The notes under the pieces are model-generated. The model did no database searches and was not told where the DNA came from. It saw only the letters and a program-made list of their open reading frames with translations. From Rhodocytophaga aerolata (GTDB lineage Bacteria > Bacteroidota > Bacteroidia > Cytophagales > 172606-1), in the NCBI RefSeq assembly GCF_030503435.1, contig NZ_JAUKPO010000002.1, positions 434,001-498,000 on the forward strand: DNA of 64,000 nt, written 5' to 3'. Below, piece after piece: positions 7,943 through 57,003 of this stretch (the stretch's first letter is position 1; each line of letters starts with the position of its first letter). The position numbers were made by a program, and so were the translations under genes.

Positions 7943-7975
7943 AAACCTGTTAGGTTTTCAAAACCTAACAGGTTT
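7943..7975. repeat. Dispersed palindrome, AAACCTGTTAGGTTTT arm (copy 1)
   Basis: A perfect 16-base inverted repeat with a one-base centre (left arm 7943-7958, right arm 7960-7975). The same core occurs at 16354-16386 and, as a variant, at 51782-51814. This copy sits between two genes of one putative operon, so it is not an end-of-operon terminator here. Confidence 0.85.
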
Positions 7976-16353: not shown

Positions 16354-16386
16354 AGACCTGTTAGGTTTTGAAAACCTAACAGGTCT
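16354..16386. repeat. Dispersed palindrome, AGACCTGTTAGGTTTT arm (copy 2)
   Basis: A perfect 16-base inverted repeat with a one-base centre (arms 16354-16369 and 16371-16386). It is nearly identical to the element at 7943-7975 and lies between the membrane protein gene and nuoD. Confidence 0.85.
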
Positions 16387-40375: not shown

Positions 40376-40882
40376 ATGCAATTGGATCAAGCCAAGGAGA
40401 AATTTATTCAGACATGGGGAACATTGGGCTCTAATTGGGGCATCAACCGTACGATGGCGCAGGTGCATGCTTTGTTATTAGTTTCTCCAGAGCCTTTAAG
40501 TGCAGAGGATATTATGGAACAGCTAACTATTTCACGTGGAAATGCCAATATGAACATACGGGCACTGATTGACTGGGGCCTTGTATATAAAGAGTTGAAA
40601 TCAGGTGAACGCCGTGAATTCTTTTCGGCAGAAAAAGACATGTGGAAAGTATTTAAACAAATAGCTAAAGAACGCCGCAAGCGGGAATTAGAGCCCATTT
40701 TCAAAGTTCTGAATGATATATCACAGGTGGAAGGAGATCCAAAAGATCCAAATTATCAGGCATTTGTTCAATCTATTGGGGGTATACAAAAGTTTGCCGG
40801 GCAAGCAGATGATTTTCTAAGTAAAGTAATTAAAGCCGATGAGCACTGGTTTTTCAATACGTTGCTTCGTTTCATGAAATAA
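40376..40882 (+). CDS. GbsR/MarR-family transcriptional regulator
   Basis: This 168-residue regulator has a winged helix (AQVHALLLVSPEPLSAEDIMEQLTISRGNANMNIRAL, about 27-66; wing GERREFF) of the GbsR type. GbsR proteins are MarR-like repressors; the best known sense choline. It heads a four-gene plus-strand operon with a DCC-domain membrane protein, a DUF2071 protein and an NAD(P)-binding protein. A palindrome in its own promoter suggests autoregulation. The ligand is unknown. Confidence 0.9.
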   Translation: MQLDQAKEKFIQTWGTLGSNWGINRTMAQVHALLLVSPEPLSAEDIMEQLTISRGNANMNIRALIDWGLVYKELKSGERREFFSAEKDMWKVFKQIAKERRKRELEPIFKVLNDISQVEGDPKDPNYQAFVQSIGGIQKFAGQADDFLSKVIKADEHWFFNTLLRFMK

Positions 40883-40938
40883 ATTTTTTTATCTACAATT
40901 TTCATATTTTATTGAAAGTACTGAATAAATATATATCT

Positions 40939-41775
40939 ATGAAAGATAAAGCCATTATTTATGATAACAACTGCCCCATGTGTGCCCTATATACAGAAGG
41001 TTTTGTCAAATGGGGCTTACTGGAAGCCAGCAACCGGATTGCTTTCTCACAACTGGAGCAGCAGGAGTTTATTAAACAAGTAGACTGGCACAGGGCTAAG
41101 CACGAAATTCCACTGGTAGACATACAGGGCGGACAAACCTTATATGGCCTGCAAGCCCTTACGCATGTTCTAAGCCAGAAGATACCCTGGCTACCAACAA
41201 TACTTCAGTACAAACTATGCTATACCCTATGTAAAGGCTTATACAATCTTGTATCGTATAACAGGCGGATTATTATTCCCTCAACTAAGACGGGCAGTGC
41301 AGGTTTCGATTCTACACCAGATTTTCATTTAACCTATAGAATAGCCTTTATTTTACTGGCTATTTTCAGCTCTATTGGAATTACCTATGCTTTCGGACAG
41401 TCACTGAATACGCTACTGGCTAGTACTACCGGCGGCCTTACTATGCTGCTGATTGCCGGCACAGGTTGGGTAGTACAACTCTGTCTGGCTGGTATTTTCC
41501 TCCACGAGAAACGTATGGAATATATTAGCCATTTGGCTGTAATTATGCTGCTGGGTGTTTTACTACTCGTTCCGGCTATATGCCTGAGCTGGGTAACAAA
41601 AAACATTTATTTGCCGATTGCTTGCCTAAGTGTTTTACTGAGCAGCAGTCTTATGTGCCGGCAGCATTATCTCCGGATACGCACCTTATCTCTCTCCCAA
41701 CGCTGGACGGCCTTATGGTTTATGGTGCTGCAAACAACCGCTTTCTTCTGGATCTATCAACTTTATTTCAACTAA
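40939..41775 (+). CDS. DCC-type thiol-disulfide oxidoreductase fused to a membrane domain
   Basis: This 278-residue protein has an N-terminal DUF393/DCC domain (about 1-115) with the redox motif YDNNCPMC (Cys12, Cys15). Five membrane segments follow from about 135 to the C-terminus (for example LLIAGTGWVVQLCLAGIFL and LAVIMLLGVLLLVPAICL). I start it at the ATG at 40939, nine codons inside a TTG frame. The combination of a DCC domain with a membrane bundle suggests membrane-linked redox or thiol chemistry. It is the second gene of the GbsR operon and is followed after six bases by the DUF2071 gene. Confidence 0.85.
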   Translation: MKDKAIIYDNNCPMCALYTEGFVKWGLLEASNRIAFSQLEQQEFIKQVDWHRAKHEIPLVDIQGGQTLYGLQALTHVLSQKIPWLPTILQYKLCYTLCKGLYNLVSYNRRIIIPSTKTGSAGFDSTPDFHLTYRIAFILLAIFSSIGITYAFGQSLNTLLASTTGGLTMLLIAGTGWVVQLCLAGIFLHEKRMEYISHLAVIMLLGVLLLVPAICLSWVTKNIYLPIACLSVLLSSSLMCRQHYLRIRTLSLSQRWTALWFMVLQTTAFFWIYQLYFN

Positions 41776-41781
41776 TTCTCT

Positions 41782-42456
41782 ATGAATATTCTAAAGAAAA
41801 TTCCGATTACTTATCAGGGGCAACTACATAATGTACAGTTAATTAATTTTTCTGTAGAACGCGAAGAAGTAGAACCGTATGTGCCCTGGAAAATCAAAAT
41901 ACGCGACTTTGGCGGAAGAGCCATGATTTCTATGGTAAATGTATACCTTAAAAATATGCACCCGACTTTTATTCCACAGGGTTTAACTTTTGAATACCGC
42001 CATATCGGCTTCCGCCTACTGGTAGACGACAGCCAGTGGAACGAAGGCCAATACAAGGGGATTTATTTTATCCGGTCTTTTACAGACAATGCCCTGATTG
42101 CGCAAGGAGGGCAACTTATGACGGATTATAATCTGGAAAAGGCAGAGATTATTTGCACCAATGAATTACTGGCCCTGAAAAAAGGGGCACAATTTCTAAC
42201 CTATGCCCTGGATGAGCAACAACCCGACATTCGCAATAAAGAGCTATACCAGACCATTGCATCCATAGACCGGGCTTATTCGCACCTGGATGGGCAAATC
42301 CGGATGACTCAAATTCAACGGGAGAAATGGCCTATTGAATGGGCTAATTGCTATCATTTCCAGACGAACTTCTTTGAAACTGCCCGATTTGAAGGCGCCT
42401 TCCGTGTAAACGAAACAATTTATTACCAATGGGAACCTCCGAAAAACATCCGGTAA
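41782..42456 (+). CDS. DUF2071 (YqjF-like) protein
   Basis: This 224-residue protein looks like the DUF2071/YqjF family (LINFSVEREEVEPYVPWKIKIRDFGGRAMISMVNVYLKNMHP in parts, EYRHIGFRLLV, GIYFIRSFTDNAL), related in fold to acetoacetate decarboxylase. The activity is not known. It is encoded six bases after the DCC protein and overlaps the next gene by 28 bases, so all three are co-translated. Confidence 0.8.
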   Translation: MNILKKIPITYQGQLHNVQLINFSVEREEVEPYVPWKIKIRDFGGRAMISMVNVYLKNMHPTFIPQGLTFEYRHIGFRLLVDDSQWNEGQYKGIYFIRSFTDNALIAQGGQLMTDYNLEKAEIICTNELLALKKGAQFLTYALDEQQPDIRNKELYQTIASIDRAYSHLDGQIRMTQIQREKWPIEWANCYHFQTNFFETARFEGAFRVNETIYYQWEPPKNIR

Positions 42457-43322
42457 GCCGTATTATTATTCTGGGCGCCAATGGCCAGGTGGGTAGTAGT
42501 ATTTATTCTTACCTGAAACGGCATTTTCCGGCACTACAGATTACAGCTTGTGTACGGCGATTATTCACTAATACACACTCACCGGATTATACTGTGTTTG
42601 ATCCTTTTGCACACAACTGGCAGCAAACAGGCAAAGCCGATGTATTAATTAACTGTATTGGCATTATTCAAGAAACGAAAGATTTTACTTTTGAACAGGC
42701 ACACCTGGGCTTAACGCGGCTTATCTTGCAGCATAGGCAAACTCTAGGTAATCCAAAAATTATTCAGATCTCTGCTCTGGGTGCTCAATCAGATAGCCCG
42801 GCCGCTTTCCTGTCCAGTAAGGGACGGGCAGATGAGTTGCTTCTGACGCATCCAGATACTGTAGTAATCAGGCCATCTATTGTGTGTACGCCTAATACAG
42901 TGTTTGCACAAAAATTAACTCTACTACGCCGGATCAGCCGTTATCTGTGGAACTACCTACCCTTTCCAGGTCATCTGTTGCAAACCCGTATTCAACCCAT
43001 TATGCCGGACGATCTGGCAAGTTTAGTAGCCAGGCTTTGTTTTACAGATCAACATCCGGCTATTATTTATGCTGTAGGACCTGATGAAATTTCATTACAG
43101 GAGCTTATTCATTTATCTAGTAATTCTATTTCTTTGCTTTCTGTACCTCGTATAGTCGCAGACCCTGGCATCCGGCTTTTGGCAGCCCTTTTACCAGATC
43201 TTCTTAACCCGCAACAATATGCTTTACTGCTCCATCCTAACACAGCCAGTAAACAGATAGCGGAAAACCTGATCGGAAGAAGTTTGCATTCGACGAAAGG
43301 ATTCTGGCAACAGTTGAGTTAA
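42429..43322 (+). CDS. NAD(P)-binding epimerase-like protein
   Basis: This 297-residue protein has an N-terminal Rossmann motif IIILGANGQVGSSIYSYL (GxxGxxG type), VLINCIGIIQE, IIQISALGAQS and VVIRPSIVC, as in atypical short-chain dehydrogenases such as the NDUFA9/complex I-assembly group. A Ser-Ser-Lys (SSKGRADE) takes the place of the YxxxK site, so dehydrogenase activity is doubtful. It overlaps the DUF2071 gene by 28 bases and ends the GbsR operon. Confidence 0.85.
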   Translation: MGTSEKHPVSRIIILGANGQVGSSIYSYLKRHFPALQITACVRRLFTNTHSPDYTVFDPFAHNWQQTGKADVLINCIGIIQETKDFTFEQAHLGLTRLILQHRQTLGNPKIIQISALGAQSDSPAAFLSSKGRADELLLTHPDTVVIRPSIVCTPNTVFAQKLTLLRRISRYLWNYLPFPGHLLQTRIQPIMPDDLASLVARLCFTDQHPAIIYAVGPDEISLQELIHLSSNSISLLSVPRIVADPGIRLLAALLPDLLNPQQYALLLHPNTASKQIAENLIGRSLHSTKGFWQQLS

Positions 43323-43389
43323 ATGGTGAGCATTATAGCTAATAAAAAACCCTTCAATTTGAAAGGCTCTTTATAGTAACTAATATTAT

Positions 43390-43503
43390 CATTTTGAGGA
43401 TTCCCAAGGCGAGAGCCAATGGGAACCAACGTAGGTGTGAGAAATCTTGTTGCTCTTTTTGATGAACCTAAAAGGCTCCTCCTCACCTCGGAATGACATT
43501 TTA
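43390..43503. repeat. GTCATTCCGAGGTGAGGAG-type dispersed element
   Basis: Read on the minus strand the element begins ATGTCATTCCGAGGTGAGGA and ends near TATCATTTTGAGGAT on the other side; the two ends are imperfect inverted repeats (10 of 14). Elements of this look are frequent between genes in Bacteroidota from memory. No reading frame of its own is convincing. Confidence 0.5.
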
Positions 43504-43654
43504 GTAAATGATACACTAAAATAATTCTGTTGAGATGCTTACCTACGTAGATTTACCTAGACTCCCCTGTTTCTCCAATACAAAAAATTTGGTATTTCGT
43601 GAGGCTGGCTAATTATTTCCGGTAGAAGGAAACGGGTTGGGTTTTATGTAAAAA

Positions 43655-43692
43655 ACAACAAGTCCTGGCAATTGATTGCCAGGACTTGTTGT
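43655..43692 (-). terminator. 18-base hairpin, terminator of the 33-residue gene
   Basis: Arms 43655-43672 and 43675-43692 are exact reverse complements (ACAACAAGTCCTGGCAAT). On the minus strand the stem is followed by TTTTTACATAAAAC. It lies 89 bases past the stop of the small membrane peptide gene. Confidence 0.85.
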
Positions 43693-43781
43693 CCCCTTAA
43701 ACCAGTGTAAAAAATAGAAAATTTTGTTACACCAGTCTAACTAAGAATGTACCCTTTTACTAACGCTCTAAGGATGTAGGA

Positions 43782-43883
43782 TTAATTAGTCTCATTTTTG
43801 TGAGAATTAATAAATACTAGAGAGCCTGCTCCAAGTGCTAGTAGGGTTGCTGCCATAATGGCTAATCCTGTAAATAGTTCCAT
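43782..43883 (-). CDS. 33-residue single-span membrane peptide
   Basis: A short frame encodes MELFTGLAIMAATLLALGAG followed by SLVFI and a polar tail NSHKNETN: one membrane helix with an acidic first and a charged last part. ATG start at 43883, TAA stop at 43782. It stands alone, with about 340 bases of non-coding DNA upstream and a strong terminator downstream, which together argue that it is a real transcript. It resembles small subunits or regulators of membrane complexes in size only; I recognise no family. Confidence 0.65.
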   Translation of the reverse strand: MELFTGLAIMAATLLALGAGSLVFINSHKNETN

Positions 43884-44221
43884 AGGCTTTTCGGTAAATA
43901 AGTGATAAAATATGCTGTAACTTTTAAACGAAATTTACTAAAAAAAAGTGTCACATTTTAATTTTTTTTATAATAATTAGTAAAATCCTATTAAAAACGT
44001 CCTTAAAAAGCAATTTAAGGCTTTTATATGATTGTAAGATTAATAGGCCGTTCGTCATTATTTAATATTGTGGGGAGATGTAATGGAAAGAATCCGAGCT
44101 AGATTGAGCTTTAACAGAATAATTTTCTACACACTATTTTTTTATTGTGCAGAAAAATACGGCAGCTTTTTGGTAATAATTAGTGGAAAAGATGAATACT
44201 AGGCTGTGTTAATAAGCTATA
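43884..44221. other. Intergenic region upstream of the small membrane peptide gene
   Basis: This 338-base AT-rich spacer presumably contains the promoter of the small gene. A 39-codon open frame on the plus strand near 44080 has a GGGGAG upstream but nothing else to support it. Confidence 0.5.
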
Positions 44222-44656
44222 TTATTCAGATGAAGCAGGCAGCCTGGGTAAGTTGGGAACCATAAAACCAAACACCTGCTGACAGTCACTATCCAACCAC
44301 TGCTGATTCAACTGTTGAAGCTCTTTTATGACTTGCCTTTTTCTTTCGCCTGTTATACCTGGCTGGTGGTACTCTTCCAGAAGTACTTCTGCCTGATCCT
44401 GAATAAATTCACAGGTTAGCTGAATAGCATCGCCGCCTGGAAACACGGGCCTGTTAGCAGAAGTATCAGCCGCTTCCGGGCGTGGCTGGCTAGGGGTAGC
44501 TGTTGCAGGGATTCGGCTTTTTTCCTTCTCTGTTGCCGGCGTGCAACCAAACACACCTATAGTAATACATAGTAACAGGAACATAGGTGGCAGGATGCGT
44601 TTCCAGATCCTGAGAGCATACGTAGAAGTGCAAATTACTATTTCAGAGTTGTACAA
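44222..44656 (-). CDS. Small lipoprotein of unknown function
   Basis: The product ends its signal region with MFLLLCITIGVFGC, a lipoprotein lipobox, then has a Pro/Ala/Thr-rich linker and a helical C-terminal part (CEFIQDQAEVLLEEYH, KRQVIKELQQLNQQWL). The start is uncertain: the ATG at 44584 leaves almost no positive charge before the hydrophobic stretch, TTG at 44656 includes RIWKR, and the frame is open to 44758. I chose TTG 44656. No domain is recognised. A response regulator gene precedes it on the same strand. Confidence 0.6.
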   Translation of the reverse strand: MYNSEIVICTSTYALRIWKRILPPMFLLLCITIGVFGCTPATEKEKSRIPATATPSQPRPEAADTSANRPVFPGGDAIQLTCEFIQDQAEVLLEEYHQPGITGERKRQVIKELQQLNQQWLDSDCQQVFGFMVPNLPRLPASSE

Positions 44657-44772
44657 AGCTTTACAAAATTGAAAGCTCAAATTAGCAATAATCTCTGGTA
44701 TGGCATTGCCTGATATAGCCGGAAATATTTTCTTACTCAGTTCAATGCAAATGAGCAATAGCCATTCTGGTC

Positions 44773-45186
44773 TTATAGCCTGCTTTGTAAAGCAGCCAGC
44801 ACTTTAGTACTGGTTACTGGTTTTTCTACATACCCCACTAGCGGAAAATATTTTACCTTCTCTTTTTCGTCTTTATAAGCTGAACTGCTAATGATTAGTA
44901 TACCGGTATTTTCGTGCCGCAAGCCTTCCATCCGGTGAAGTTCCGCCAGAAACTCATACCCATCAATTACAGGCATGTTAATGTCTAGTAAAATTAACTC
45001 CGGACAAAAAATTTGTTCATTTTCAAGGGTGGGCATACAGTTCTCTGTCAGGTACCGCAAGGCTTTAAAGGCACTACAACAGCTAATGATTTTTTCGGCA
45101 ATACTCAGCTTACTTACTGCCATTTCTGTCAGGTGCAGGCTAAGTTTGTCATCATCTATTATCATAAGTTGCTTTACCCTTTTCAT
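44773..45186 (-). CDS. Single-domain response regulator
   Basis: This 137-residue CheY-like receiver has acidic residues at 11-13 (IIDDDK), phospho-acceptor Asp68 in LLDINMPVIDG and a Lys in VEKPV. It has no output domain. It is similar in type to the regulator at 20618-21022, but no kinase gene is adjacent, so its partner lies elsewhere. The lipoprotein gene follows on the same strand. Confidence 0.9.
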   Translation of the reverse strand: MKRVKQLMIIDDDKLSLHLTEMAVSKLSIAEKIISCCSAFKALRYLTENCMPTLENEQIFCPELILLDINMPVIDGYEFLAELHRMEGLRHENTGILIISSSAYKDEKEKVKYFPLVGYVEKPVTSTKVLAALQSRL

Positions 45187-45349
45187 AACAGAATGATTTA
45201 TACTAGCTTGTACTCCATATGATAAAAATAGTTTAGCTGTTTTTGTAAAATGCAGGATATGGTTTCTACTTTAAACATATGCAGATAGAAACACATCCGG
45301 GCAATGGTGTTGCTCATAACGGTTGACTAATTCAAGCCATAAATATCCG

Positions 45350-45380
45350 TTGTAGATTGAGCCGGGAATCTGTATATTCG
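45350..45380 (+). promoter_or_regulatory. Candidate promoter of the 63-residue protein gene
   Basis: TTG (45350-45352), exactly 20 bases, then TATATTCG (45373-45380), one mismatch to TAnnTTTG. The start codon is 42 bases downstream. Confidence 0.45.
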
Positions 45381-45422
45381 TATAAAATAAAAGTTATGTT
45401 CAACAGGTTAACTTAACTTAGT

Positions 45423-45614
45423 ATGGCAACACGCAAAGCAAAATACCTATCTAAAGATGAAAGCAAGGGTCTTCGCACCAACTCCATCTATGATATCAAC
45501 ACGCAAGTAGTTGGCGACAAAATAGCGGTTGAAGTTACGCAAGCCAATCAGCAAGCCCAGATGCACTATACCTCCAAACGGGAGTTTCTGAAAGATTGGC
45601 TGGTAATTGATTAA
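45423..45614 (+). CDS. 63-residue protein of unknown function
   Basis: This small soluble protein starts MATRKAKYLSKDESKGLRTN and has a compact polar sequence (VVGDKIAVEVTQANQQAQMHYTSKREFLKDWLVID in parts) that suggests a small alpha/beta fold. It has a plausible upstream promoter with TTG-N20-TATATTCG. It shows no signal peptide, cysteine pair or recognised motif. It stands alone between a response regulator and the PorV-like operon. Confidence 0.7.
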   Translation: MATRKAKYLSKDESKGLRTNSIYDINTQVVGDKIAVEVTQANQQAQMHYTSKREFLKDWLVID

Positions 45615-45901
45615 CAGGTTTACCTGCTGAGATTCTTTGCTAGAGAAGCCCGGCAGGTAAGCATCCTATTTTTTCTTATACCTACCTTACTACACTTAGT
45701 TTATGGAAGTAAACTATTAAATTTGTCAGAGAAACACAGCTTATTTTCATTCTCTAGCTGAAAGATAAATATTCATCTTTCTTGCTTTAATTCTGCTAGC
45801 GGGCAAGCCATATTTTTAGCAGTCGGGATACTTTACTTACATACGTAGGATGCATAAACTTACTCTCAAATGGCAGTCGTTTGCGTCGAGTAAATTTATT
45901 T

Positions 45902-46747
45902 ATGCGAACTTTTTTACTCGGCATAATTCTTTGTTTTACGCTTGATATCCAAATATTTGCCAGCGGTGATCCCTGGCCGGTTGGCGGCCGGGCATCCGGT
46001 ATAGCTAACACAGCTGTTACCCTCACAGATGGCTGGTCGCTGTTTAATAACCCTGCCGGGCTGGCAGGTAGTAAGCAACTCCACGTACTATTTGCTTTCG
46101 ATAGCCGGTTTGGTATTGCTGGGCTTCAAAGTGTAGGCGCCGGTGTGGCTATGCCGCTGAAACAAGCAACCGTTGGAATAAGTGTACAGAAACTAGGCGA
46201 TGCCTTGTATAGTGAACAGATGGCCGGAATAGCATTTAGCCACAAAATAAGCCATGTCCAATTAGGCATAAAAGCAAATTACGTGCAGGTTCATGTAGGA
46301 GACTTGGGAACAAAAGGTGCGCTGGCAATGGAGTTTGGCGGAATAGCTACTATTACGCCACAGCTGTTTTTCGGAGCTCATGTTTATAATTTTAATCAGG
46401 CCAAACTAGCCAGCTACCAGGATGAACGTATTCCTACGGTCATGAAAACGGGCCTATCTTACCGGCCTATCACCCGATTAATGCTGAACCTGGAAGCTCA
46501 AAAAGATACCGACTTTCCGGCTACCGTTAACGCAGGTATCGAATACCAGATTGTTAGCCAATTTTACCTGCGTACAGGCATTGCCACAAAGCCAGGTATT
46601 CAGCACTTTGGGGTAGGGGTACACAAAAAGAAATTTCACTTCGATTATGCTTTACGTACGCATCCTACCTTAGGACTCTCTCATCACTTGTCGGTAGCCT
46701 TAACGTTTGACAGAAAAACGCAGGCAACGAAAGCATCCAATCTCTAA
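45902..46747 (+). CDS. PorV/PorQ-like outer-membrane protein
   Basis: This 281-residue protein has a signal peptide (RTFLLGIILCFTLDIQIFAS) and then WPVGGRASGIANTAVTLTDGWSLFNNPAGLAG, the N-terminal signature shared by PorV/PorQ and FadL-type barrels. The rest is made of amphipathic beta strands. The ATG at 45902 is chosen over a TTG at 45881. PorV and PorQ work in type IX secretion; whether this paralogue does is unclear. It ends seven bases before the start of the helix-hairpin-helix barrel gene, so they are probably an operon. Confidence 0.8.
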   Translation: MRTFLLGIILCFTLDIQIFASGDPWPVGGRASGIANTAVTLTDGWSLFNNPAGLAGSKQLHVLFAFDSRFGIAGLQSVGAGVAMPLKQATVGISVQKLGDALYSEQMAGIAFSHKISHVQLGIKANYVQVHVGDLGTKGALAMEFGGIATITPQLFFGAHVYNFNQAKLASYQDERIPTVMKTGLSYRPITRLMLNLEAQKDTDFPATVNAGIEYQIVSQFYLRTGIATKPGIQHFGVGVHKKKFHFDYALRTHPTLGLSHHLSVALTFDRKTQATKASNL

Positions 46748-46753
46748 TTATTC

Positions 46754-48892
46754 ATGCATTACCTAGCTTTTCCTGGATATTTGGGGTTGTATACTTCTAT
46801 ACGTAAAACTGGTTTGCTAGCTTTTTTCCTGTTTTGCATGGCTGCAGTTGCCTTTAGCCAGGAATATCCTAAAAAGGAGATTAATATAGATGCCTTTGTG
46901 CAAGAGTTGTTTAGCCAGCAGGAAGAAGATATAGATTATGAAGATTTATACGAATCGTTATTTCAGTTATATGCCCATCCGTTGAATTTGAATACAGCTA
47001 GCAGAGACGAACTAGCCTCAACCTATATCTTGTCAGAAGAACAGTTAAACCATTTCTTTAGCTACCGCAAAGTGAATGGCAACTTGCTTTCTATCTATGA
47101 GTTACAGGCAATTCCCGGATTTGATCTACCTACCATTTACAAACTATTACCCTTTGTAGAAATTCGTGATGGAGGCTTGCAGCAAGATAACCGTCCGTTA
47201 TGGGAACGTATAAAAGCAGAGCCTACCCATTACTTACTACTGCGCTACGACCAGGTGCTGGAGACAAAAAAAGGATATACCCCTGCAGATACTAATTCAA
47301 CAGGTGAGCTCAACCAGCGGTATCTGGGTTCGCCAGGTAGATTGTATGCCCGTTACCGCATTAGCCACAGCAAAGATTTTAGTTTTGGGTTTACTGCGGA
47401 GAAAGATGCGGGAGAGCAACTGACGTTTCAGCCTTCTACCCGTCGCTATGGAACAGATTTTTTCTCTTTCCATGCAATGCTGCAGAATAAAGGCCGCTGG
47501 AAAAATATAACCATTGGCGACTACCAGATTCAGGCAGGACAAGGTTTGGCAGTATCTTCCGGATTTGCTGTAGGCAAAGGTGCAGAAACCATTACTACCA
47601 TCCGGCGCAACAACCTGGGAACCCGGCCTTATACATCTGTACTGGAATATGGATTCTTCAGAGGCATAGCTGCTACCTACGGTTTCAAACAGGTAGATAT
47701 TACTGCTTTTTATTCAAACATCCGCCGCGATGCTCATTTGCCTGCTGCTACCGATACTCTTACGGAAGCAGAAGACTATTATACTTCTTTACAGACTACT
47801 GGCTTTCACCGGACACCTTCGGAAATAAAAGCCAAAGGCAATGTAGCCGAACAGTCAGCCGGTACCAATGTGCTTTACCAACACGCCAGTAAGAATCTGC
47901 AAATTGGTGGCACCTTTTTACATACCTTGTTCAGCTCCCCTTTGGCCAAAAGGCCATCCTCATACAATCAATTTGAGTTCAATGACAGGCAGAATTATAT
48001 TGCAGCAATCAATTATAGTTATGTCTGGCAGAATTTTAACTTTTTTGGCGAAACGGCTAGTTCCCAGGGAGGAGGTACTGGCCTGATCACTGGCTTTGTG
48101 AGCAGCTTAACACCTAAACTGGAACTGGCTATGGTTTACCGTACCTACAGCAAAAGTTTTCATAGTTTGTATGGCAATGCCTTTGGGGAAAACACGCGGA
48201 ATGCGAATGAAAAGGCCCTTTATTGGGGAATAAAGCTACAACCTATCCGGAAAATCACTCTGGCTGCTTATTATGACCGTTTCAGTTTTCCATGGCTCAA
48301 GTACCGGGTAGATGCTCCCTCACAGGGATATGAATATTTGGGACGTATTACCTACAAACCCACTAAAACCATTATGCTTTATGCCCAGTTCCGGCAAGAA
48401 TCCAAAGCCATGAATCAGGCGGATAACTCAACTGCCATAGATTTTCTGGTGCCCGCTCACCGGAGAAACTTTCTCTTCAACATAGATTATCCGGCAGCAA
48501 AGTATATTTTTCTAAAATCCAGGGTACAGGGCAGCAGTTTCAGGCAAGATAATGTTCCCACTTTTGGCTATGCCATCATTCAGGACCTAACTTTAGATCT
48601 AGGTAAATGGAAAGCAAGCACCCGGTTTGCCCTGTTTGATACCGATAATTACGATAACAGGCAATATGCCTACGAAAAAGATGTGCTCTATGCATTTTCC
48701 ATTCCCGCCTATGACGGAAGGGGCACGCGGAAGTATCTGCTGGTGCAATACCAGGTTAACCGCAAACTGGAACTGTGGGCCAGATATTCCCGCACAGCCT
48801 ACCGAAACAAAAATAGTATCAGCTCCGGTCTGGAAGAAATAGAAGCATCTCACCGGTCTGAGGTAAAAATGCAAGTGCGGTATATGTTTTAA
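46754..48892 (+). CDS. Helix-hairpin-helix protein fused to an outer-membrane beta barrel
   Basis: This 712-residue protein has a signal region (TGLLAFFLFCMAAVAFSQ, about 19-36), then tandem helix-hairpin-helix units (about 77-137: LNLNTASRDELASTYILS and LLSIYELQAIPGFDLPTI), and from about 170 a long series of amphipathic strands ending in an aromatic C-terminus (MQVRYMF) typical of barrels. HhH units bind DNA in ComEA, but in Bacteroidota this fusion occurs as an exported protein of unknown function. It is encoded directly after a PorV-like protein. A terminator hairpin follows at 48922-48949. Confidence 0.85.
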   Translation: MHYLAFPGYLGLYTSIRKTGLLAFFLFCMAAVAFSQEYPKKEINIDAFVQELFSQQEEDIDYEDLYESLFQLYAHPLNLNTASRDELASTYILSEEQLNHFFSYRKVNGNLLSIYELQAIPGFDLPTIYKLLPFVEIRDGGLQQDNRPLWERIKAEPTHYLLLRYDQVLETKKGYTPADTNSTGELNQRYLGSPGRLYARYRISHSKDFSFGFTAEKDAGEQLTFQPSTRRYGTDFFSFHAMLQNKGRWKNITIGDYQIQAGQGLAVSSGFAVGKGAETITTIRRNNLGTRPYTSVLEYGFFRGIAATYGFKQVDITAFYSNIRRDAHLPAATDTLTEAEDYYTSLQTTGFHRTPSEIKAKGNVAEQSAGTNVLYQHASKNLQIGGTFLHTLFSSPLAKRPSSYNQFEFNDRQNYIAAINYSYVWQNFNFFGETASSQGGGTGLITGFVSSLTPKLELAMVYRTYSKSFHSLYGNAFGENTRNANEKALYWGIKLQPIRKITLAAYYDRFSFPWLKYRVDAPSQGYEYLGRITYKPTKTIMLYAQFRQESKAMNQADNSTAIDFLVPAHRRNFLFNIDYPAAKYIFLKSRVQGSSFRQDNVPTFGYAIIQDLTLDLGKWKASTRFALFDTDNYDNRQYAYEKDVLYAFSIPAYDGRGTRKYLLVQYQVNRKLELWARYSRTAYRNKNSISSGLEEIEASHRSEVKMQVRYMF

Positions 48893-56801: not shown

Positions 56802-56954
56802 ATGGGAAAGGGAGATAAAAAATCGAAAAAAGGGAAGCTTTTTATGGGCACATTCGGCAATAGCCGCAAACGCAGTTCAGCGGTTAAAGTAGCTGAAGTT
56901 GCTACAGATGCCCCTAAGGAAGCAAAACCTGCTGCTAAAAAAGCTAAAAAATAA
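56802..56954 (+). CDS. Small ribosomal subunit protein bTHX
   Basis: A 50-residue frame begins MGKGDKKSKKGKLFMGTFGN, which matches the N-terminus of ribosomal protein Thx (bTHX), a short basic protein that sits in the head of the 30S subunit. A longer Ala/Lys-rich tail (APKEAKPAAKKAKK) follows, beyond the usual length of about 25-35 residues. It has a clear promoter and a terminator 14 bases after the stop. It is the only ribosomal gene in the window. The tail resembles histone H1-like or AT-hook-poor basic tails; its use is unknown. Confidence 0.9.
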   Translation: MGKGDKKSKKGKLFMGTFGNSRKRSSAVKVAEVATDAPKEAKPAAKKAKK

Positions 56955-56967
56955 AAACTATACAATC

Positions 56968-57003
56968 AAAAAAGCCCTGTTGATTATTCAGCAGGGCTTT
57001 TTT
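56968..57003. terminator. Bidirectional terminator, bTHX and FecR-like genes
   Basis: AAAAAAGCCCTGTTGA pairs with TCAGCAGGGCTTTTTT (one G-T wobble) around TTAT. T-runs on both strands fit termination of bTHX (+) and the FecR-like gene (-, stop at 57020). Confidence 0.92.

Follow-up and report, generated by a model that had tools for sequence, protein, structure and literature searches.

CydX and KdpF are small regulatory subunits of membrane complexes, each consisting of a single helix. AcrZ of Escherichia coli is likewise a small single-helix regulatory subunit, which packs against AcrB (PMC7267776). Subunits of the AcrZ type share with the 33-residue peptide considered here that they are short, possess one transmembrane helix, and are easily missed by length cut-offs. 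YohP of E. coli, a 27-residue, stress-related membrane peptide (PMC12719787), is comparable in that it too is a short membrane peptide. Both likenesses are of general description, and no partner gene was recognized at our candidate locus. The literature on small membrane proteins, on small proteins of Rhodocytophaga, and on type I toxins provided background or nothing on the locus.

The window analyzed is a stretch of 64,000 nucleotides from Rhodocytophaga aerolata (contig NZ_JAUKPO010000002.1, positions 434,001 to 498,000), and coordinates without a prefix refer to it. The features that concern us are as follows:

43782-43883, minus strand: open reading frame (ORF) of 33 codons with ATG start and TAA stop, encoding a putative single-helix membrane peptide (hydrophobic at about residues 3-25, polar tail at residues 26-33)
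43884-43903, minus strand: start context of this ORF, with GAAAAG upstream of the ATG; 2.61 bits, above 280 of the 334 profile genes
43693-43781, minus strand: the 89 nt between stop codon and terminator, containing a second, weaker hairpin without a T-run (-20.8 kcal/mol, z = -1.94; matched in stability by 11 of 200 shuffles)
43655-43692, minus strand: perfect inverted repeat, a probable intrinsic terminator (18-nt arms at 43655-43672 and 43675-43692, 2 nt between)
43382-43541, no strand assigned: dispersed repeat in the intergenic stretch that separates the terminator from the plus-strand gene (160-bp match, 75% identical, to contig C126 of the same genome)
44222-44758, minus strand: lipoprotein-like frame, no Pfam match, lying 338 nt upstream of the ORF on its strand; a possible operon partner
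44773-45186, minus strand: gene for a response-regulator receiver protein, farther upstream on the same strand (PF00072, E = 5.3e-13)

Our reading, which we consider reasonably probable, is that 43782-43883 is a genuine but ordinary small gene for a lineage-specific single-helix membrane protein that perhaps packs against a partner. An earlier note on this DNA had proposed a genuine short mRNA that length cut-offs overlook. The directional hairpin, the hydrophobicity, and the gene-like start fit that proposal, but conservation of the frame was not found. A missed gene for a small membrane protein, with a putative transcript and a putative product, is plausible and moderately supported, the start context and the terminator being the indirect signs of transcript and product.

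The hydrophobic helix and polar tail that the note had read from the tiny frame are borne out: the maximum 19-residue Kyte-Doolittle mean (KD19) is 2.29, and AlphaFold2, run on the single sequence, predicts one helix over residues 2-31 (mean pLDDT 89). In size and predicted helix the peptide agrees with the descriptive class of small single-pass membrane proteins (up to about 50 residues, one membrane-spanning hydrophobic helix). Small residues (A8, A12, A16, and G20) line one face of this helix, a register that is also found in 13% of helix shuffles. The hydrophobic stretch is locally and weakly similar to two Pfam families, DUF3918 (PF13056; 13.4 bits, E = 0.063) and DUF6095 (PF19589; 13.2 bits, E = 0.11), and reaches neither curated gathering cut-off (21.3 and 23.8 bits, respectively), so the peptide is a member of neither.

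The gap between the flanking long frames extends from 43323 to 44221, with a plus-strand frame ending at 43322 and a minus-strand frame ending at 44222. A gene-free stretch had thus been correctly noted, but at 899 bases it is slightly larger than the 800 or so first given. The label “lipoprotein-like” for the upstream frame was given by eye and is presumptive. The plus-strand neighbor (42429-43322) looks like a short-chain dehydrogenase/reductase (SDR) by eye, all its Pfam matches lie below cut-off, no relatives were found in the genome contig collection, and the sister species has no match at E ≤ 1e-20. Parts of the repeat at 43382-43541 have at least eight short matches in the sister genome.

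How much of this would be expected by chance? Of simulated gaps of the same size and composition, 69-74% contain an ATG frame at least 33 codons long; one that is also equally hydrophobic is present in 1.3-1.6%, or in 2.9-3.0% if GTG and TTG starts are allowed. As background for the organism we used the candidate's own 604-kb contig, joined, with 463 long genes called by codon usage and 482 small intergenic ORFs of 25-60 aa. Five of these 482, the candidate included, have a KD19 of 2.29 or more; the other four are a DUF6728 protein, a 31-aa peptide with a probable orthologue, and two ORFs without known support. ORF length alone carries no weight, and hydrophobicity is suggestive, not decisive, genome-wide. 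On this first contig, with the candidate counted, a terminator scoring 11 or more accompanies 4 of the 5 hydrophobic ORFs versus 13 of the other 477, and one scoring 15 or more accompanies 2 of 5 versus 9 of 477. The link was not repeated on a second contig, where 10 ORFs of equal hydrophobicity all lack a terminator within 100 nt.

The start context was scored against a profile built from 334 ATG genes of the 604-kb contig, the same 334 with which the candidate is compared. Among the other small ATG ORFs, 162 in all, 5 equal or exceed its 2.61 bits; the THX gene described below scores 2.89, the DUF6728 frame 4.44, and the 31-aa peptide 2.12 bits, and the two hydrophobic ORFs without support have scores of -1.99 and 0.26. 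For the all-codon score, 36 of 481 other small ORFs do as well as the candidate. Its synonymous codon choice is background-like: 271 of the 481 reach its score, and 118 of 2315 pieces of genes score no higher. Taken by itself, synonymous choice does not look gene-like, so the codon signal largely reflects amino-acid composition, which the hydrophobicity already covers. The promoter box TAnnTTTG was sought in the 338 nt upstream of the ORF and not found; the box occurs in 67 of 276 upstream regions (40.6 expected), the other 209 being without it.

The perfect 18-base hairpin with a T-run on the strand of the ORF, which the earlier note had reported, is present. Folded as minus-strand RNA it reaches -32.7 kcal/mol (z = -7.96), and the T-run follows it on the minus strand only, the plus-strand side reading CCCC. 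It may be the ORF's “own” terminator, as the note had it, but the transcript of the lipoprotein-like gene could also end there. From the stop codon to the outer arm there are 89 bases. Genes and terminators on the 604-kb contig are usually 0-56 nt apart (40 of the 45 pairs within 150 nt), and 4 of those 45 have gaps of 89 nt or more, so the distance here is longer than usual. A pattern scan of 42000-46000 returned two terminator-like sites, the hairpin not among them, probably because its stem can be extended to 23 pairs via G-T pairs that consume the T-run. This extension is a small mark against the hairpin as a terminator.

A looser scan of the 604-kb contig, in which strong sites were those scoring 15 or more, intergenic, and preceded by a gene on the same strand, gave 59 sites. 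For 44 of them the gene stop lies within 120 nt; the hairpin is among the other 15. At nine of these 15 a gene on the opposite strand ends within 120 nt, and the hairpin may be shared. The remaining six, at five places, are near no gene end on either strand; one of these places ends the frame of the 31-aa peptide and one is our hairpin. Apart from our hairpin, two of the 15 distant sites follow small genes outside the long-gene list, namely those for the 50-aa THX protein and the 31-aa membrane peptide. Two other identities for the hairpin and its surroundings were considered and rejected. In a DNA search of four genomes (E ≤ 1; 40 of 45 candidates scored in the own genome) the 38-base hairpin matched only itself in its own genome, which argues against a repeat-borne element; other genomes gave shorter partial matches. 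Similarly, a known RNA family at the locus was rejected, as there was no Rfam match at gathering thresholds.

Start context and terminator can also be combined. We applied a joint filter (start of 1.5 bits or more, terminator score of 11 or more within 100 nt) with thresholds set after the candidate had been seen, and 5 of the 482 small ORFs on the first contig passed: THX, DUF6728 (Pfam, E = 3.3e-28), the 31-aa peptide, a TTG frame overlapping THX, and the candidate. The three other non-overlapping ATG frames on the contig that carry such features are small genes by family models or by a probable orthologue in the sister species, in line with the note's reading of a missed gene. The same filter, unchanged, passed 5 of 602 small frames in 800 kb of another contig: two with ATG starts (a DUF4295 frame, E = 1.4e-25, and a 27-aa frame that matches no Pfam family) and three with GTG or TTG starts and no Pfam match. 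Over both contigs 10 of 1084 small frames pass, and four of the six with ATG starts are independently supported, the candidate and the 27-aa frame being the two that are not.

These controls merit a brief description. The THX gene (ribosomal protein, 50 aa; 56802-56954, plus strand; NCBIfam TIGR04560, E = 8.4e-12) lies in the window itself and is below common ORF cut-offs; the hairpin after it (56973-56998) has T-runs on both strands and also serves a gene on the opposite strand. The 27-aa ATG frame (G000:C111:109075-109158, minus strand; L108:9075-9158) starts in a gene-like context and is followed by a terminator after 27 nt. The very hydrophobic 31-aa peptide (G000:C125:590195-590290, minus strand; L094:12195-12290) is followed by a strong terminator 31 nt on, and matches no family above cut-off. 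The sister species has a frame (L100:1501-1596) that agrees with it in length, start, and end and is 52% identical at E = 0.42; this frame is probably its orthologue, as judged by the agreement in form and not statistically. The 31-aa frame and the candidate belong to the same genome, are of similar size, and have in common a gene-like start and a strong terminator far from long genes. Only the 31-aa frame, however, has a sister match and gene-like synonymous codons.

Searches for relatives of the 33-aa peptide were carried out at several depths, with the source genome counted in each total. Four of the 59 nearest genomes match at E ≤ 1 and 5 of 390 genomes of the order at E ≤ 0.2; no relative was found in the order, the sister species included. 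Among eight family genomes at E ≤ 10, the source itself was accompanied by one poor match (E = 1.93) inside an open frame of 149 codons; the sister species gave zero matches, as did five of the six other family members. When seven weak matches (four from the search of the order and three from the other two) were read on their own strand, none was a stand-alone frame of similar length with the start rightly placed. The nearest in form, an ATG frame of 26 codons, lies antisense to the beginning of a frame of 266 aa. A pattern for the peptide core had six exact matches in the genome contig collection (Bradyrhizobium, Caulobacter, and other records), a number that we judge, by rough estimate, to be near chance. 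An origin in phages or plasmids is rejected as far as those collections show, with no match at E ≤ 1.

The power of such searches is limited: the probable sister orthologue of the 31-aa control is found only at E = 0.42, and the 50-aa THX control in 31 of the 59 genomes at E ≤ 1. In addition, three parts of the neighborhood, namely 40376-42456 (MarR, DCC1-like, DUF2071), the lipoprotein-like frame, and the pair at 45881-48892, lie in three separate places of the sister genome. Since gene arrangement is not conserved there, the absence of the ORF from the sister species is weak evidence. The earlier note had made its reading depend on conservation of the frame, a feature that would support but does not define a small single-pass membrane protein. 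None was found as far as tested, that is, across the order, but with the neighbors scattered in the sister species the test is a weak one.

Could the hairpin belong to another transcript? Looser scans revealed no strong terminator in the stretch that separates the lipoprotein-like gene from the hairpin, so the hairpin could end that gene's transcript. The ORF would then be open by chance, within a long 3' untranslated region of the response-regulator/lipoprotein transcript, and the hairpin would be that transcript's displaced terminator. By eye, the sister homologue of the lipoprotein-like gene has a hairpin with a T-run within about 15 nt of its stop, and there is no room for a small ORF between this homologue and the next gene; the background-like synonymous codons and the failure to find relatives in the 390 genomes point the same way. 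We nonetheless consider this account unlikely. The next long gene upstream is 534 nt from the hairpin (by its scored core), far beyond the distances usual on the contig, and a weaker AT-rich hairpin at about 44110-44170 (81-nt stretch, -16.0 kcal/mol) could already end the transcript. Moreover, the start context (about 3%) and the hydrophobicity (1-3%) would both have to be coincidence.

Two further accounts give the stretch a function of another kind. A non-coding small RNA ending at the hairpin, with the ORF inside it untranslated, would suit the strong hairpin with its T-run, the second hairpin in the preceding 89 nt (at about 43697-43740, minus strand), and a peptide for which no relatives were found. 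That second hairpin is, however, just mildly above shuffles, 43782-43960 folds no better than chance (z = 0.37), the whole window has zero Rfam matches at gathering thresholds, and the gene-like start context would be left unexplained; we regard a small RNA as rather improbable. Small size, one hydrophobic helix, and the lack of an adjoining long gene would befit a toxin of type I, in which an antisense RNA silences a small hydrophobic peptide. Toxins of this kind are usually basic, but this peptide has a net charge of -1. On the plus strand near the ORF no hairpin with a T-run was found that would end an antisense RNA, the own genome has no second match at E ≤ 10, and phages and plasmids, as above, have no match, all of which makes a toxin very improbable indeed.

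If 43782-43883 is instead the small membrane protein gene that we favor, the following course of events can be proposed. The gene would be specific to the source species or a narrow lineage, and would be transcribed on the minus strand, either by itself or at the end of a transcript shared with the response-regulator and lipoprotein-like genes, with the RNA presumably ending at 43655-43692. The 33-aa product would be translated and inserted as one membrane helix, whose face of small residues may suit packing against itself or against a larger membrane protein. Within a membrane complex it would probably act as an accessory or regulatory helix. A more specific version, which we put forward tentatively and as possible rather than probable, is that of an orphan gene that arose recently, is confined to the source species or a narrow lineage, and has gained a functional start site as well as a terminator of its own; its peptide would act on a membrane complex via the small-residue face.

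If real, the gene is one more small membrane protein gene hidden by length cut-offs. The analysis also suggests a simple rule for this genome: missed small genes can be recognized by a strong terminator far from long genes in combination with a gene-like ATG start. This rule brought up THX, DUF6728, DUF4295, and the 31-aa peptide with its probable orthologue, along with some unsupported GTG and TTG frames. Elsewhere in the window, near-identical 33-bp palindromes of the CCTGTTAGGTTTT type, both intergenic and without T-runs, occur at 7943-7975 and 16354-16386, and are possibly copies of a dispersed palindromic repeat.
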